A stretch of 53,507 nucleotides of DNA from NCBI GenBank assembly GCA_021204625.1, contig JAJPZA010000016.1:1-53507 (forward strand), in the 5' to 3' direction. This DNA comes from Clostridia bacterium. Its GTDB lineage: Bacteria > Bacillota > Clostridia > Christensenellales > Borkfalkiaceae. The notes beneath the pieces are model-generated. The model worked only from the letters and a program-made list of their open reading frames with translations. It was not told where the DNA came from and ran no database searches. Below, one piece after another: positions 131-42,290 of this stretch. Each line of letters begins with the position of its first letter. Position 1 is the first letter of the stretch. Made by a program: the position numbers and the translations under genes.

Positions 131-1867
131 ATGAGTGGCAAGCGCTACATTAAGGCCATAACATCGTACCAGGTACAGCGTCATACAGTCCGCATGGCCA
201 GTCCCAGGCATATACTGACACTGGAGGCAGCGCTTTCAGAAGATGATAAGCGTCACGTGTTTCACCTTGCAGACAAGGTGCGCAGGTGTGGAAACGATAT
301 GACGGCTGACATGATGAAGGTCTATTGGCAGCTCGTAGATACGGAAGAGTACAGCGGTCTCATGAAGGCTTATGGCAAGGCTATAGAGGCAGAGGATGCA
401 GTTCTTAAGAAGGAGCTGGGTGCCAAGCTTAAGGCAATGCAGGAGCAGCACAATGTTACGTGGAGCTTCTGCTGGCATAAGGCGCTTGAGTATGCACGCA
501 CATACGATATACGCACTGCTTTTACCCTTTCCAGGGCTGAAGAGATATGGTCCGGGATGGAGAAGCTTCTTTACTCCGGCGGGAAAAAGCTTCATTTCAA
601 GGGGAAGGGAGATCTTTCTCTTATCAGAGGACAGACGATAAGAAATGGCATCGCTATCCATCCGAACGAAAACGGCAGTCTGCGGTTCCAGCTCGGCAAG
701 CTTCATTTTACCAACATCGTCAAGCCGGAAGACAAGTTCATCAACGATGAAACGGCTGCAATCTGGAGTTACCTTCAGGATCCGGAATCTAACGACAGGC
801 ACGCTGTTGAAGCTTATCTGAGGGACGGCACGCTTACAGACACTTACCGCCCCTGCTATGCCGCACTGAAGTGCGTCAAGATCAAGGGGAAGCTCAGGGT
901 CTATATCCTTGTCACCGTAGAAGGCAAGCCCATGAGAAAGTACCGAAAGGCACGTGACTCCAACGGAAATGTCTTGTATGATTCCAACGGGGAACCCATA
1001 TATGTCCCGAGGCACACATACGGCACCGGAAGGGTCGGTGTGGATATAGGAACACAGACCATCGCTTATACCTCGAAGGGAGAGGTAAACATAAAGAACC
1101 TTGCGGAGCGCGGAGATTCCATCAAGCACCGTGAAGCGGAAGAGAGGCGCCTGAGGAGGGCCATGGACCGTTCAATGAGAGCAATGAATCCGGATAATTA
1201 CAATCCGGACGGCACCGTCAAGAAGGGGATGAAGACATGGATCCGTTCCAAGCGATACATGAAGCTTTGGGGCAAGCTCAAGGAACTCAGCAGGATTGCT
1301 GCCGAGAACAGGCACTATGCCATCAACGAAGATGTTAATCATCTTAGGGAACTTGGCGATGAGCTTATCACTGAGTCCGAAAATGCGGATAAGGTGAGAA
1401 GGAAGGCCAAGCCGCAGACCAAGGAGGAGCTTGCAGATCCTCATGTAAAGAACAGGAACCGCAAGCGCTGTGGCAGGTCTGTTCAGAACCGTTGTCCCGG
1501 ATACTTCCAGGAAAAGGCAAAGCAGGTATTTGCAAGTACCGGCGGGAGATACGTTGTTGTGCCTGCAGGATTCCGTGCAAGCCAGTATGATCACATAGCG
1601 GATACATACAGCAAGAAGCCGGTGTCTCATCGCAAGCGCACTCTCGGAGATGGGTCAGAAGTGCAGAGGGACATGTATTCCTCGTTTCTCCTGTCAAATG
1701 CAGATGACTCATACACATCCATTGACAGGGATGCATGCATGAAGAACTTCCAGGATTTCTACCGGAAGGAGCAGGCCAGGATCATGGAGATTCAGAAGTC
1801 TGGCAGGAAGGTGATGAACTCCGGAATCCGCACCTATCGGAAGTCCCATACAAGAAAGAGCGCATAG
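131..1867 (+). CDS. TnpB-like RuvC nuclease (IS605 OrfB superfamily, zinc-finger-less subgroup)
   Basis: A 578-residue relative of TnpB, the RNA-guided nuclease ancestral to Cas12. The three RuvC blocks are readable: GVDIGTQTIAY (Asp305), ELITESENAD (Glu415, best candidate) and VQRDMYSSFLLSNAD (Asp514). In classical TnpB a CxxC...CxxC ribbon lies between the last two blocks; here SQYDHIADTYSKKPVSHRKR takes that place and has no cysteines, as I recall for a subgroup of long clostridial TnpBs. The N-terminal half (about 1-300) should be the REC/wedge part and is basic. ATG 131 was chosen because AAAGGAG lies at 116-122; an upstream TTG at 74 has no ribosome site. No TnpA transposase gene lies within the window. 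Three copies of a structured RNA follow directly downstream. It could be an active nuclease, a homing factor or a domesticated regulator; all three acidic residues are present, so I expect catalysis. Confidence 0.85.
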   Translation: MSGKRYIKAITSYQVQRHTVRMASPRHILTLEAALSEDDKRHVFHLADKVRRCGNDMTADMMKVYWQLVDTEEYSGLMKAYGKAIEAEDAVLKKELGAKLKAMQEQHNVTWSFCWHKALEYARTYDIRTAFTLSRAEEIWSGMEKLLYSGGKKLHFKGKGDLSLIRGQTIRNGIAIHPNENGSLRFQLGKLHFTNIVKPEDKFINDETAAIWSYLQDPESNDRHAVEAYLRDGTLTDTYRPCYAALKCVKIKGKLRVYILVTVEGKPMRKYRKARDSNGNVLYDSNGEPIYVPRHTYGTGRVGVDIGTQTIAYTSKGEVNIKNLAERGDSIKHREAEERRLRRAMDRSMRAMNPDNYNPDGTVKKGMKTWIRSKRYMKLWGKLKELSRIAAENRHYAINEDVNHLRELGDELITESENADKVRRKAKPQTKEELADPHVKNRNRKRCGRSVQNRCPGYFQEKAKQVFASTGGRYVVVPAGFRASQYDHIADTYSKKPVSHRKRTLGDGSEVQRDMYSSFLLSNADDSYTSIDRDACMKNFQDFYRKEQARIMEIQKSGRKVMNSGIRTYRKSHTRKSA

Positions 1868-1901
1868 CTTTTGCAGCAACATAACATGTAAACTCGTTTT
1901 G

Positions 1902-2303
1902 GGTTTATAACACCAATCAGCTTTATCAACCAAACAACTTTATGCTTCAGAGAGCATGATTCAGCAAGCAATTGCTTCACAGGGCGTTGGACTTAGCGTC
2001 CTTTCCCTTCGGGGAAGAATGCACACAGTAATGTGTCCGTTGGGATGCATGTGCATATCCGTTGCTACTAGGTACTGTCTCTTGCTATAGACCTTTTGCC
2101 AGGCAAAGGAGATGTAAGTAATTGACAGGTGCCCCGTCAACGGAACCGCCATATATGGCGATAAGTCGGGCCGGCGAATTTTGTATTTTGGGCCAATAAG
2201 AGAAGGAGATGAACTTGGGGAGTCGCCCCGGAAAGTAATCCCACAAAAGGAACAGTGTTTAACTGTTTAAAAATGGAAAATACAACATATATAACCATTT
2301 ATC
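1902..2303 (+). ncRNA. Structured RNA repeat, unit 1 (candidate TnpB guide-RNA scaffold)
   Basis: First of three tandem related units downstream of the TnpB-like gene. Recognisable stems: ATGCT/AGCAT; AGCAA/TTGCT; GGGCG (1982-1986) with CGTCC (1997-2001); a UUCG-capped TTCCC/GGGAA; GGATG/TATCC around 2043-2060; TTGC/GCAA; TTGAC (2122-2126) with GTCAA (2136-2140); and CGCCATATATGGCG (2147-2160). A 3' extension shared with unit 2 holds GGGG/CCCC, then ATCCCACAAAAGGAAC and TTAACTGTTT. A small stem ending in GGTTTAT precedes each unit. No coding potential is apparent. TnpB family members use an RNA encoded at the 3' end of their gene; assigning this RNA to that role is inference from position and structure. 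Confidence 0.65.
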
Positions 2304-2683
2304 GGTTTATAGCAATCAGCTTTTATGCTTAAATGAAGCATACTGATATGGAAGCAAGGAGTTGCTTCACAGGACGTTGGACTTAGCGTCCTTTCCCTTC
2401 GGGGAAAAATGCGCACGCTAATGTTGTCCCATAGGATACATGTGCGTATCCATTGCTCCTTGGTACCGTCTCTTGCTGAAGTCCTTTTTGCCATGGCAAT
2501 GGGGATGTGCGTAATTGACAGGTGCCCCGTCAATGGAACTGCCATATATGGCAATAAGTCGGGCGGGAGAATTTTGTGTTTTCGGCAATGAGAGTAGAAG
2601 ATGAACTCTAAGGGTTGTCCCAGTAAGTAATCCCACAAAAGGAACTGTGCTTAACTGTTTCCTCTAATGTATAAACCATTTTT
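2304..2683 (+). ncRNA. Structured RNA repeat, unit 2
   Basis: Second copy, offset 390 nt from unit 1 (measured at the shared TTGCTTCAC). The stems repeat with paired changes: TATGCTT/AAGCATA is now 7 bp, GAAGCAA/TTGCTTC is perfect, GGACG (2372-2376) pairs with CGTCC (2387-2391), GGATAC (2434-2439) with GTATCC (2446-2451), and the unit 1 stem CGCCAT/ATGGCG becomes TGCCAT/ATGGCA (2540-2553), a C-G to U-A exchange. Loops vary more than stems, as expected of selected RNA. The 3' extension of unit 1 is kept, with a shorter GGG/CCC hairpin. No separate promoter could be identified; the unit could be cut from one long transcript. Confidence 0.65.
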
Positions 2684-2964
2684 GGTTAATAACAGCTAGC
2701 TATATGCTTTAATAAAGCATAGCGATATGGGAGCAAGCAGTTGCTTCACAGGACGTTGGACTTAGCGTCCTTTCCATTCGGGAAGAATGTGCGTATTATA
2801 GTGTCCGATAGGGTGCCTGTGCGTATCCGTTGCTCCTGGGATACCATCTTTTGCCAAAGTCCTTTTTGCCCCGGCAAGAAGCGATGCTCGCAAATGAAAA
2901 ATGCCTTGCCAACGGAAAAGAAACCGTCATGCTTGCATGGCGTAGCCCGTGGGGCATTTAGGAG
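2684..2964 (+). ncRNA. Structured RNA repeat, unit 3, ending like a TnpB right end
   Basis: Third copy, offset 379 nt from unit 2. It keeps TATGCTT/AAGCATA, the GAGCAA stem, GGACG (2751-2755)/CGTCC (2766-2770), GGGTGC (2811-2816)/GTATCC (2823-2828, using G-U pairs) and TTGC/GCAA. The last stem is changed to CGTCATG (2925-2931)/CATGGCG (2936-2942). It lacks the 3' extension of units 1 and 2 and instead ends in GTAGCCCGTGGGGCATTTAG, which resembles right ends of TnpB-only IS605 elements, where the RNA scaffold stops and the guide starts. If so, the guide would begin near 2965. The exact 3' boundary is uncertain by several bases. Confidence 0.6.
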
Positions 2965-3029
2965 TTTTTAATGGTTCATGTATACCCACATTACTTCAAC
3001 ATGTGAAAAAATCGTTGCTAAGCATAAAG

Positions 3030-3056
3030 GCCATGGACTTGTTTCCATGGCTTTTT
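3030..3056 (+). terminator. Intrinsic terminator closing the RNA array
   Basis: GCCATGG (3030-3036), an 8-nt loop, then CCATGGC (3045-3051) followed by five T. It would end the transcript about 65-90 nt after unit 3, leaving room for a guide-like 3' tail. Confidence 0.85.
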
Positions 3057-3238
3057 GCATGCCAAAAATTTGTAATGACGGGCCATATATCTGCAATATC
3101 CGGAGGAAAGAAAATGGTACCATAGACAGCGTGGGAGAGTTTTGCCGCTCCTGCGCAACATGCATATTAAAGTCCTTCAGGCAGGCTTAAGACGGGCGGA
3201 TGAGGAGAGGGATGGAATAGATTCGGAGGAAAAATATT

Positions 3239-4530
3239 ATGGGCGCTGGCATAATCGCCGTCATTGTAATCTGCTCAGTCATCGTGGCGGCTCTTCTTGT
3301 GGTCATCATAGGATATGCCGCTTTGTACTTTAACAACTGCAACAAGGTAAGGCCGGAGACCATAGACAATCCTACGGGATTCGTAAAGGCATACGGCAAC
3401 AACCTCTATGACGGAGACGGCAGGATCCTTGTCCTCAAGGGTGTGAACCTTGGCAACTGGTTCGTCCAGGAAGGCTGGATGAGATTAAGCTCCGTGGAGG
3501 GCTTTGAGACCGGAGAGTACACACAGCAGAGGGGGATTGACGCAATGGCTGTAAACCACAACGTCACCTCAGAGCAGGCTGAGGAGCTGGACAAAATCTA
3601 TATGGACAATTTCATCCGGGAGACGGACTTCGCCAACATAAAGGCCCTGGGTATGAACTGCGTCCGCCTGCCGTTCACGTACAGGAACATAGCAGACATG
3701 GAGGCAAACACCACAGAGGAGTCTTTCCATTATCTGGACTGGGCCCTGGACATGTGTGAAAAATTCGGCTTGTTCGCGATAGTGGACCTTCACGGAGCAT
3801 ACGGCTCACAGAACATGGACCATCATTCAGGGGATGACATCCAGTTCAACCTGTATTGCAACGACCACAATGAGGAGCTTACCATAAAGCTCTGGAAGAC
3901 CATAGCGGCCCGGTACAAGGACCGCAAGTGCGTGGCGGCATACGATCTTCTGAATGAGCCCAGGAAGGCAAAGCACAAGTTCGGCGGCAAGGTCACCTTT
4001 GACTTCTATGACGGCCTGTACAAGGCCGTCCGTGAAGTGGATACCAGCCATATGATCATGATGGAGTGCTTCACGTTCCCTTCCACGGCGCCTGCCTCCA
4101 GCATTACAACTGGGAGAACATCTGCCTCGAATACTACATATACAATTACACTCCCCTCACGCAGAAGCAGTGTGTCGGTTTCTATAACGCCTGCCACAAC
4201 TTCAAGGGCTTCTGCGTACCGGTTTACATCGATGAGTTCACTGTCTTTGGCAAAGAAGCCAAGTGGGAGGAGACCTTCAATGCAATGGAGCATTACGGCT
4301 GGTCCTACACCTCCTGGACCTATAAATGCAACCGGCACATGTACATAGAAAAAAATCCCGCATGGCACTGGGGCCTGTACATAGAGGACAAGCAGCCCGT
4401 GAACCCTGTACACCGCAACATATAATGAAATCATGGAGATGTACACGACAGGTGTGCCCACGGAAAAAACCCAAGAACTGTTGCCCTGGATGCCTTTGAG
4501 CACCATCTGGGCTCCAAGGCAGAGATATAA
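3239..4530 (+). pseudogene. Membrane-anchored GH5-family glycosidase, frameshifted
   Basis: Glycoside hydrolase family 5 (cellulase/exo-beta-glucanase type) with an N-terminal membrane anchor at about residues 4-27. Seen: LKGVNLGNWFVQEGWM near the start, LHGAYG, the acid/base motif YDLLNEP, and further on VYIDEF, whose Glu is the expected nucleophile. The frame breaks near 4076-4083 (the TTCCCTTCC tract), so the nucleophile half lies in another frame. Homology returns to the first frame near 4400 and shifts again around the A6 tract at 4464-4469, ending at 4530. GGAGG at 3225-3229 supports the ATG at 3239. Three shifts in one gene suggest decay, although assembly errors in homopolymers are possible. 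If intact it would degrade beta-glucan at the cell surface. Confidence 0.75.
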
Positions 4531-4563: not shown

Positions 4564-4596
4564 AAAGCCCTGCAGGCATGCAGCCTGCAGGGCTTT
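4564..4596 (+). terminator. Strong hairpin terminator, usable on both strands
   Basis: AAAGCCCTGCAGG (4564-4576) pairs perfectly with CCTGCAGGGCTTT (4584-4596) around a 7-nt loop. It lies just beyond the GH5 remnant. Confidence 0.75.
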
Positions 4597-4600
4597 GATT

Positions 4601-4955
4601 GTGCAAAGTTTTGGCGCAGACGGGTTAAGCCCCGTACAGACCGCAAAAAATGCGGCCATCAGCGCAGTCAAGACATGGCTCATGGCGCATGGCCGAAAGA
4701 AACCGCGCCGGCCTGCAGCCCCTAAGGCTGATACCGCGCACAAGCCGCTCATATAGCACTCATACAGCACCCGGACTGCAGGTTCCCGCCGGGAACCCCG
4801 GCCGGAAGCAAGGGCCGCAGTCCCGGCCAGCAAAGGACTGTCTTATGTTAAGGTCCCGGCGCATGCGGTTCAGCAAGACAGGCCATGGAAGCGCCCCTGC
4901 AGGCATATCCTGCATTCAAGCCGTATCATCCGTCACGGAAAAAAGCTGTGAACCT
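4601..4955. other. Intergenic stretch with no supported gene
   Basis: About 355 bases between the GH5 terminator and the end of the exporter gene. Reading frames exist but have no ribosome site and no recognisable protein. It is C/G-rich with some inverted repeats. I see nothing functional. Confidence 0.5.
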
Positions 4956-6035
4956 TCACAATCGCTGTTTTGACTCTGTGGATGTCTCTGTCTCCTGAGC
5001 AGCATCCTGCACCGCAGGCTTCTTTCCAGGGTCTCCCGGCGGCGCACCGGAGGAGGAGCCGGGCGGCTGCAAAAGCTTTGGCTTTCGGTGCCAGTCCTCG
5101 AATCTGTTCACTATGTAGATCCCCGCGCAGACTATTATGAGGGCCGTGATGTTGAAGGGTGAGAAAAGTATGTCCCACTCCGTGAGAATGAGGGCGGAGA
5201 ACAGGGCGGAGAAGACCGGGTCCAGGCTCTTGTATATGGCAACCTTGGACACCGTGCAGTATTTGAGAAGATACCCCTGGAGGGTGAAGGTGCTGGCGGA
5301 TATGAGGGCGAGGAAGATGAGAATGAAGATGGCGCCTATGTCCGCAACCGGAATTTCGCCTCCGGCAATTAGCCCGGCGGCAACAAGCACGACACCGCCT
5401 AAAAGGAACTGGTATCCGTACAGGACGGCCGGATCCTCATGCCTTGCAAAGACCCTTGTAACGGCCGCGGCAAGCGCGGAGAACACGGCGGAGAACAGCA
5501 GGAAGCCCTCTCCCTGGAGAGTAAAGGTGAAGGAGAACTCGCCGCCTGCGTTTATGAGTATGACCCCGCCGAATCCCAGGATGCAGCCCAAAAGCTTTAT
5601 CCAGGTGAACTTCTCCGTGCGGAACAGAAAGCATGCCGCAAGGATAGTGAAGAAGACGGCCGTGCCGCCCATTATGGAGGACTTCACGCCGCTCACGTAT
5701 GCAAGGCCTATGTAATAGAAGATGTAGTGGGCAATGGTCTCAAATACGGACAGGACCCCCACGCGCCACCAGTTCTTTGCCTTGGGGTACACGAATTTCC
5801 TGCGTATAGCGGATGTCACGGCAATGACCAGAATCCCGGCCATTACGAACCTCAGCCCGGCGAAAAGGATGAGGGAGCCCGGGTTGTCCGTGTCCAGCTC
5901 AAAGAGGGAGTAGCAGGTCTTTATCAGGGGAGCGGTGGTGCCCCAGAGCACGCAGCAAAAGAGCGACCCTGCGCAGATCACCCAGTTTTTGGAGAAGAAC
6001 TTCTCCGGATCAAACTTTCTAGCCCTTGTGCCCAT
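4956..6035 (-). CDS. EamA/DMT-family transporter, paralogue 1
   Basis: Inner-membrane transporter of the drug/metabolite superfamily, with about ten hydrophobic segments in two EamA repeats (about residues 20-165 and 175-310). The hydrophilic C-terminal tail is rich in Pro, Gly and Ser. Substrate cannot be read from sequence; family members export amino acids, nucleobases, toxic compounds or other small metabolites. It is a clear paralogue of the gene at 8647-9849: both contain RRKFVYPKAKN or RRRFVYPKAKN, ACFLFRTEKF and GCILGFGGVILIN. I chose the ATG at 6035 (MGTRARKF), which aligns with the paralogue's start. TATAAT lies only 7 nt upstream of that ATG, so the mRNA may be leaderless. A terminator and a structured element lie further upstream. 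Confidence 0.85.
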   Translation of the reverse strand: MGTRARKFDPEKFFSKNWVICAGSLFCCVLWGTTAPLIKTCYSLFELDTDNPGSLILFAGLRFVMAGILVIAVTSAIRRKFVYPKAKNWWRVGVLSVFETIAHYIFYYIGLAYVSGVKSSIMGGTAVFFTILAACFLFRTEKFTWIKLLGCILGFGGVILINAGGEFSFTFTLQGEGFLLFSAVFSALAAAVTRVFARHEDPAVLYGYQFLLGGVVLVAAGLIAGGEIPVADIGAIFILIFLALISASTFTLQGYLLKYCTVSKVAIYKSLDPVFSALFSALILTEWDILFSPFNITALIIVCAGIYIVNRFEDWHRKPKLLQPPGSSSGAPPGDPGKKPAVQDAAQETETSTESKQRL

Positions 6036-6042
6036 GCTTTGA

Positions 6043-6071
6043 ATTATACCAGCCAGCAGACGGCAAAACAA
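6043..6071 (-). promoter_or_regulatory. Promoter of exporter 1, abutting the start codon
   Basis: On the minus strand TTGTTT (6066-6071), a 17-nt spacer and TATAAT (6043-6048). The -10 box ends 7 nt before the ATG, so transcription would start at or next to it. Confidence 0.6.
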
Positions 6072-6073
6072 GC

Positions 6074-6099
6074 AAAAACGCCGTCCAACGGGCGGCGTT
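6074..6099 (-). terminator. Intrinsic terminator or attenuator upstream of exporter 1
   Basis: On the minus strand AACGCCG pairs with CGGCGTT (7 bp plus an inner GG/CC) and runs into a T tract. A second hairpin, AACGGG/CCCGTT, lies just upstream (6100-6117). It could simply end upstream transcripts, or act as the off-switch of the structured element at 6134-6228. Confidence 0.65.
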
Positions 6100-6133
6100 A
6101 AACGGGACATTTTCCCGTTCCCTACTGTCTTGC

Positions 6134-6228
6134 ATGAAAAAAGAACATGCCTTCAGCGATAAAGCTTTGTGGAAGTTAATCCCCAGACACATGATGCAAA
6201 GCATCCAGACAGGTCATGCATGTTCTTT
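6134..6228 (-). promoter_or_regulatory. Closed stem-loop element, possible regulatory RNA
   Basis: Read on the minus strand, an 11-bp perfect stem AAAGAACATGC (6218-6228)/GCATGTTCTTT (6140-6150) encloses about 67 nt with inner hairpins GATGC/GCATC and GGGG/TTCC, then a run of six T. The layout (long P1, internal helices, then a downstream terminator at 6074-6099 before a transporter gene) is riboswitch-like, but I do not recognise any known aptamer core. It could also be a small inverted-repeat element. Confidence 0.4.
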
Positions 6229-6480
6229 ATAAAAATAAAGGATGAAGCCAGACGCCAAATCATTCATAAAATGATACGCCCCTATGTTAAGACCTGCGAC
6301 AAGACGCTATACATCAAGGCAGTCATACAACATCCTTTACATTCAGCAGTATAACGGATTTTAGCCTGTTTGTCAATTTACAGCGATGAAAAAATCAGCT
6401 GATCAATGTTAATTTGCCGGTTTGACTGTCGAGGCAACCAAAAAACAATACAAATCCGGAAATAAAAATGCAGTGGCTTA
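6229..6480. other. Intergenic, no gene seen
   Basis: AT-rich spacer between the small reading frame at 6481-6600 and the stem-loop element. No convincing gene or RNA was found. Confidence 0.4.
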
Positions 6481-6600
6481 TTAGGTCACTGCTCTGGACT
6501 TTACCAGCACCGCTCTATTTCTTCTGCGATGAATAAGCTTGACTAGTATGCCGCCTATTTTCTCGTGCTCTGGCATAGAAATATCTTGCTTCAATGGCAT
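6481..6600 (-). CDS. Small basic hypothetical protein (39 aa)
   Basis: A short frame beginning MPLKQDISMPEHEKIGGIL and ending in an Arg/Lys-rich tail. GAAGG stands 8 nt before the ATG, a good ribosome site. It lies just downstream of the broken DUF3990 gene on the same strand, 26 nt past that gene's stop. I do not recognise the protein. It may be a real small companion gene or a chance frame. Confidence 0.3.
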   Translation of the reverse strand: MPLKQDISMPEHEKIGGILVKLIHRRRNRAVLVKSRAVT

Positions 6601-15716: not shown

Positions 15717-15845
15717 GAAATCATTGGGATTTTGCTCATGAAATCTTTGGGATTTTTATTGTAAAATCTTTGGGAATTTTATTGTAAAATCTTTGGGAAT
15801 TTTATTGTAAAATCTATGGGATTTTTATTGTAAAATCTTTGGGAT
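15717..15845 (+). repeat. Six direct repeats, 23-bp period, upstream of an ATPase gene
   Basis: Consensus AAAATCTTTGGGATTTTTAT plus TGT. Copies start at 15717, 15740, 15763, 15786, 15809 and 15832, the last one partial. The first copies diverge slightly, and the inner four are almost identical. The final copy carries TTGTAA (15828-15833), which is 17 nt from TATATT (15851-15856), so the array ends in the promoter itself. Likely binding sites for a regulator; the repeat can also change copy number by slippage. Confidence 0.85.
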
Positions 15846-15877
15846 TGTGTTATATTGTTATGTGTGAGGTCTCTATA

Positions 15878-42214: not shown

Positions 42215-42290
42215 TGGTCGAGGCGGCGGGATTCGAACCCACGACCTTATGGTCCCGAACCATACGCGCTACCAACTGCGCTACACCTCG
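42215..42290 (-). tRNA. tRNA-Pro (CGG)
   Basis: 76 nt on the minus strand with encoded CCA. Acceptor CGAGGTG/CGCCTCG, D-arm with AGTTGGTA, anticodon stem TATGG/CCATA with loop TTCGGGA (anticodon CGG), and T-loop TTCGAAT. It reads CCG codons. It lies in single copy with its own promoter and terminator and next to a likely mobile or defence-related cluster. Confidence 0.97.

Follow-up and report, generated by a model that had tools for sequence, protein, structure and literature searches.

Tandem omegaRNA genes beside a divergent TnpB-like nuclease gene in a Clostridia bacterium

TnpB nucleases usually work with one guide RNA, and it is an open question how one-guide transposon nucleases developed into immune systems with many guides; one route to many guides is the splitting of the RNA into a tracrRNA and a CRISPR array. 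TnpB in a studied relative reportedly cuts its own mRNA to give the omegaRNA. In other TnpBs the 3' end of the element supplies the reRNA, about 16 nt of flanking sequence act as its guide, and DNA is cut beside a 5' transposon-associated motif (TAM) (PMC8612924). In one case studied, part of a TnpB mRNA was inhibitory to DNA cleavage (PMC10278001), and TnpB-like repressors that have been domesticated are able to bind target sites within open reading frames (ORFs) (PMC13418256).

The locus described here lies on contig JAJPZA010000016.1 (C52) of the Clostridia bacterium assembly GCA_021204625.1 (own bin, G000); the window is the whole stretch analysed, 53,507 nucleotides of that contig. At 131..3056 (plus strand) a tnpB-like gene, three tandem scaffold units (W1–W3) and a terminator follow one another in that order. 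This anatomy is read with high confidence as a divergent TnpB gene with tandem omegaRNA genes at its 3' end. Two further loci of the clade were found, one at contig C198 of the own bin (units C1 and C2) and one in genome G025 (units G1 and G2, stretch L010); all three come from draft bins. The explanation favoured, with moderate confidence, is a transposase-less, probably immobile TnpB locus of IS200/IS605 type that carries a tandemly duplicated omegaRNA gene and makes several omegaRNAs. The features of the window locus are as follows.

131..1867, plus strand: tnpB-like gene, 578 aa (ORF with ATG at 131 and stop ending at 1867; RuvC D305, E415 and D514)
1939..1980, plus strand: unit 1 leader hairpins (sequence and folds)
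1982..2169, plus strand: W1 omegaRNA scaffold, the weakest of the seven (4/59 pairs broken); covariance-model match ends at 2166
2170..2189, plus strand: presumed guide of unit 1; start set from homologous right ends of IS605 elements (± ~3 nt)
2324..2368, plus strand: unit 2 leader hairpins (sequence and folds)
2372..2562, plus strand: W2 omegaRNA scaffold; covariance-model match ends at 2559
2563..2582, plus strand: presumed guide of unit 2, by homology
2703..2747, plus strand: unit 3 leader hairpins (sequence and folds)
2751..2951, plus strand: W3 omegaRNA scaffold, which groups with the G025 units; covariance-model match ends at 2948
2952..2971, plus strand: presumed guide of unit 3, by homology
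3030..3056, plus strand: intrinsic terminator (sequence and fold)

The TnpB fold, the RuvC triad and an omegaRNA that lies directly 3' of tnpB and closes with a hairpin, a short tail and the guide are shared with the IS200/IS605 TnpBs (L024, L032, L033 and L034; ISDra2 TnpB, PMC8612924). The clade loci differ from these in that no tnpA was found, in having two or three scaffolds and in the added leader hairpins; their gap from stop codon to first scaffold is 108–154 nt, and it is 13–15 nt in L025, L032, L033 and L034. The nuclease-dead TnpB repressors known as TldR (PMC13418256) likewise derive from TnpB and have lost mobility, as this locus probably has, but they lack the RuvC residues that are present in the window protein.

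The downstream units as omegaRNA scaffolds

The initial annotation described three tandem structured units of about 380 nt. Three copies are present at spacings of 390 and 379 nt (repeat search of the window; Tandem Repeats Finder gave a period of 393, 2.4 copies and a score of 1143 at 1963–2870), but the conserved structured part is only about 190–200 nt per unit, and the remainder consists of a short leader and of 3' sequence that changes faster. A unit is made of a leader with two small hairpins, a scaffold of 188–201 nt, including the last hairpin and a tail of ~9 nt, and a variable 3' part; scaffold starts by the covariance model are 1982, 2372 and 2751. Units 1 and 2 are alike across the whole repeat, and unit 3 matches them in leader and scaffold only. 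By sequence, two leader hairpins occur in W1, W2, W3, G1 and G2, one in C1 and none in C2.

The covariance model (R1) was built from an alignment of the seven scaffolds only (three of the window and the four further units) and searched over 22 sources. All seven units were recovered, together with full-length matches directly 3' of tnpB in L033 and L032 (E 1e-10), L025 (4e-8) and L034 (6e-3). L024 and more distant relatives gave no match at E 5; the same end hairpin was seen by eye in L024. Because a model made from the units alone also recognises the one omegaRNA present in IS605-type relatives, these units are themselves omegaRNA scaffolds and not a new RNA class, and the locus has the scaffold 3' of the gene that is expected of an IS200/IS605 TnpB. 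A minus-strand model match inside unit 3 (2826–2916, E 6e-4) probably reflects stem self-complementarity. Against Rfam 15, whose RNA families include HEARO and IS605-orfB, a single match in the window, a tRNA (42218–42290), reached its gathering score; at E ≤5, region 1850–3250 gave three matches far below gathering scores (best rli61, E 0.44).

Tandem units stand directly 3' of the gene in all three clade loci found (three in the window, two at C198 and two in G025), and a second unit is absent in five sister elements. The initial proposal of several RNA scaffolds per nuclease is borne out by these counts, and the covariance-model search did recover repeated RNA units beside related nucleases. 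The proposed intrinsic terminator also holds: a stem at ~3030–3051 is followed by five T, and 3020–3062 folds at −21.1 kcal/mol (z −4.5). In the consensus scan it was listed for the minus strand only.

With ten RNAs aligned to the model, an alignment that leans to the model, 95.8% of cells were paired and both-side changes were present in 36/60 pairs; none of 500 shuffles was as good, and slid controls were 39–49% paired. RNAalifold on the seven units alone returned 59 pairs, six with both-side change, and a small covariation term. One-side changes kept pairing in 11/12 cases between W2 and W3 (4.5 expected), 11/13 between W3 and G2 (6.0 expected) and 7/10 between G1 and G2 (3.6 expected); C1–C2 had too few changes for this test. 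The fold of W2 with its 3' part was more stable than shuffles (z −3.83). The single-sequence fold of W3 was not clearly so (z −1.44); the case for structure is drawn from covariation. Pairing is retained in most units, least in unit 1.

These results bear on a rather unlikely alternative, a decaying relic, in which an IS605-type element lost tnpA, its 3' end was duplicated by slippage or recombination and the extra units have no role. W1, with the most broken pairs of the clade units (4/59), fits such decay. Pairing above expectation in comparisons among W2, W3, G1, G2 and C1 argues against it, as do the terminator present after unit 3 and the repeated units, two or three per locus, at all three loci found, set against none beyond the first in the five sister elements.

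The nuclease and its genomic setting

Solved TnpB structures were the best matches of the predicted structure of the window protein, and its RuvC catalytic triad (D305/E415/D514) is intact. The protein alone gave no sequence match in Pfam, NCBIfam or PDB; its TnpB identity follows from its relatives (45–47% identity to the TnpBs of L032–L034) and its fold. The RuvC-containing TnpB homologue of the initial annotation is thereby confirmed, and its TnpB/Cas12f-like fold with RuvC D-E-D is that of an IS200/IS605 TnpB. Between the window and G025, the ratio of nonsynonymous to synonymous divergence (dN/dS, NG86) is 0.32 for tnpB and 0.14 for the EamA gene. The window TnpB is under purifying selection, and a dN/dS of ~0.3 speaks against a relic. 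The locus is a recurring variant of known TnpB systems with an intact, selected nuclease.

LaTranC (PDB 9jfq, 9jfo) is a TnpB-like protein beside a CRISPR-like array. Like it, the proteins of L022, L023 and L036 are distant TnpB kin with repeats 3' of the gene. Their repeats are ~32 nt with a period of ~66, whereas the window repeats whole omegaRNA genes, and they fall in another part of the tree. A short-repeat array of the type V CRISPR-Cas/TranC kind was not found beside the window gene, where only the ~390-nt units were seen. The three related loci encode proteins of ~500 aa and are TranC-like or unassigned type V loci: L022 (G197:C69) has a CRISPR-like array at 5702–6510 with eight repeats seen around a masked stretch, L023 (G309:C15) one of ten repeats at 4578–5242, and L036, an IMG/VR contig, one at 5404–5644 with four repeats shown. 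L022 and L023 come from two genomes of the same order. The type V model C2c8 (NCBIfam) matched L036 (E 1.2e-14) and also the ordinary phage IS605 TnpB L028 (1.3e-13); as both lie far below the cut-off, these matches were left unused.

The tnpB gene and its array occupy corresponding positions in the window and in G025: the neighbouring EamA, Fur-like and PTPS genes are 86.6%, 89.4% and 95.2% identical, and the sequence flanking the last unit on its 3' side can be aligned. Synonymous divergence is 0.84 for tnpB, 0.72 for EamA and 0.41 for PTPS, and synteny and divergence together fit vertical keeping of an immobile locus. A GH5-like gene lies upstream in G025, and its relative (94%) in the own bin sits close to an end of contig C161; in the window a GH5-like gene follows the array instead. 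No TnpA gene was found near the locus, and the Y1_Tnp profile had no match in G000 and a 26-position fragment in G025. The initial suggestion that a locus lacking tnpA may be domesticated agrees with this, and the locus is probably immobile, an absence from a draft bin not being final. As a mobile element of IS200/IS605 type the locus does not qualify, having neither a Y1 tnpA nor signs of mobility and being syntenic in two species. The missing Y1 transposase in G000 would also suit a relic.

Two repeats were noted at the edges of these loci. Positions 28–63 of C161 (L071) and 28–63 of the window share a 36-nt stretch, 83% alike and in inverted-repeat orientation, and this end repeat of C161 and C52 is perhaps the cause of the assembly break before tnpB. 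On both sides of the G025 tnpB-array a terminator-like stretch of ~49 nt is found (L010 633–681 and 3459–3506, 82%), as if duplicated.

In the RNA tree (FastTree), W1 and W2 group together (0.995), as do W3, G1 and G2 (0.935) and, within these, G1 and G2 (0.71); C1 and C2 are adjacent at the outgroup junction with support 0.163. Because of this grouping the units were probably duplicated more than once, although gene conversion could look alike. Carriers number 2/93 genomes in the genus, by protein and by RNA model. A P0001 search of genome contigs gave no further relative and an A1 search gave one, the G025 contig. In the order sample, 3/297 genomes matched (the own genome and two CRISPR-type cousins), and in the class sample, at E 1e-80, 1/391, the own genome. 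Unit DNA had no match in phages and plasmids, nor the scaffold motif in IMG/VR.

Presumed guides and possible roles of the array

The right end of the relatives consists of a hairpin, ~9 nt ending in TCAG and then flank. By homology to these element ends the guides are placed from ~2170, 2563 and 2952, and what comes after each scaffold is expected to serve as guide. The contig begins too late to include the left end of the window locus. In four of five sister elements (L024, L025, L033 and L034) the left-end hairpin is preceded by GTTAT, by eye, on the side where an IS200/IS605 TnpB would have its TAM, opposite the flank that would supply the guide.

Over the first 20 guide bases, W1–W2 agree at 17, C1–C2 at 16, W3–G2 at 16, W3–G1 at 9 and G1–G2 at 9; the corresponding scaffold identities are 164/191, 184/191, 169/201, 167/201 and 167/201. 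Guides mutate pointwise at about the scaffold rate or faster. G1–G2 is the only duplicate pair whose guide is clearly less alike than its scaffold, and CGAGTTT is still common to both; among the compared units no clear spacer-like replacement of guides was seen. Among W2, W3 and C1, only 3–8 of 20 bases agree in the 3' parts.

Equivalent omegaRNAs could also serve dosage or autoregulation, by raising guide RNA per protein or titrating TnpB, with the 3' sequences playing no part in target finding. The similar guides of W1–W2 and C1–C2 (17 and 16 of 20), for which nothing significant was matched, are consistent with this, as is the inhibitory mRNA region cited above (PMC10278001). We regard it as unlikely, the almost fully different 3' parts of W2, W3 and C1 and the 9/20 shared by G1–G2 going beyond what pure dosage needs.

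Exact scans of IMG/VR with 19–23-nt patterns gave no match for the W3, W1/W2 and W3/G2 forms, G1's own form being left out. The C1/C2 form gave five matches in two distinct sequence contexts; these were rejected as targets, their number being, by our estimate, about that expected by chance for such a degenerate pattern in a large collection. A W3-end pattern gave two extra 3-mismatch matches in the window (0.10 expected) and was dropped because its start falls within the scaffold once the boundary is drawn as here. At ≤3 mismatches the own and G025 genomes gave one non-significant lead, in the GH5-like gene; as background, 78/831 20-mers from the arrays reach exactly 16/20 somewhere in local DNA.

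Translated, the W1/W2 guides read A-G-E-F-C-I/V, which resembles the GH5 active site encoded by the G025 gene upstream of tnpB, and they match that gene at 16/20 (W1) and 15/20 (W2) positions (L010 213–232); C2 matches 16/20 in the gene that precedes its own tnpB. Given the repressors that target sites within ORFs (PMC13418256), one could imagine from this resemblance that the nuclease regulates or cuts host genes nearby in a guide-dependent way. Compared with 3000 random 20-mers, the flank matches reach p 0.02 (C2), 0.045 (W1) and 0.14 (W2) with seven guides tried, and own-genome flanks give W1 and W2 only 13/20, reached by 98% of random 20-mers. A cutting nuclease aimed at its own host would moreover be harmful, and such a role appears very improbable.

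Several points weigh against the favoured locus with several omegaRNAs. No significant target was found for any guide in IMG/VR, both genomes and the flanks; W1–W2 one-side changes keep pairing in 4/8 cases (3.3 expected), about chance; and carriers number only 2/398 genomes in the family. The C198 copy may stem from another species, because the own bin shows 5.35% contamination and is larger than its genus mates. The rarity, the missing targets and the pointwise drift of duplicates' guides would also be expected of a relic.

We nevertheless lean towards several working omegaRNAs being made from the locus, as judged from sequence. tnpB and the units would share one transcript that stops at the terminator, and from this RNA TnpB and host RNases would release the individual units, perhaps by cutting at the leader hairpins. 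Every unit would form its own ribonucleoprotein with its own 3' guide, so that one nuclease would carry two or three guides, and repeated units would supply more omegaRNA per protein. That different units have distinct useful targets is a tentative suggestion. Equally speculative is a natural multi-guide TnpB in which whole omegaRNA genes, each bringing its own guide, form a lengthening tandem array that is processed from a single transcript and does without CRISPR repeats. If true, transposon nucleases with one guide would have a second way, besides splitting of the RNA, of becoming many-guide nucleases. Tandem omegaRNA genes with an intact, selected TnpB are a natural case in which a single transcript could load two or three guides, and they lend themselves to testing whether guide arrays work without CRISPR repeats. 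The idea of a functional counterpart of a CRISPR array has so far not been upheld: the units are whole omegaRNA genes and not short repeats, and support for an adaptive array of CRISPR type is missing because no significant target was found and the W1–W2 and C1–C2 guides are point-mutated copies, not clearly unrelated spacers. A reserve or decoy role, as also suggested initially, may still apply. No mention of tandem omegaRNA units was met in the open-access literature searched, parts of which were available and in which tandem or array wording was partly covered; this is no claim that none is in print.

Elsewhere in the window, a 23-nt tandem repeat is present at 15718–15846 (5.6 copies, 90% matches).
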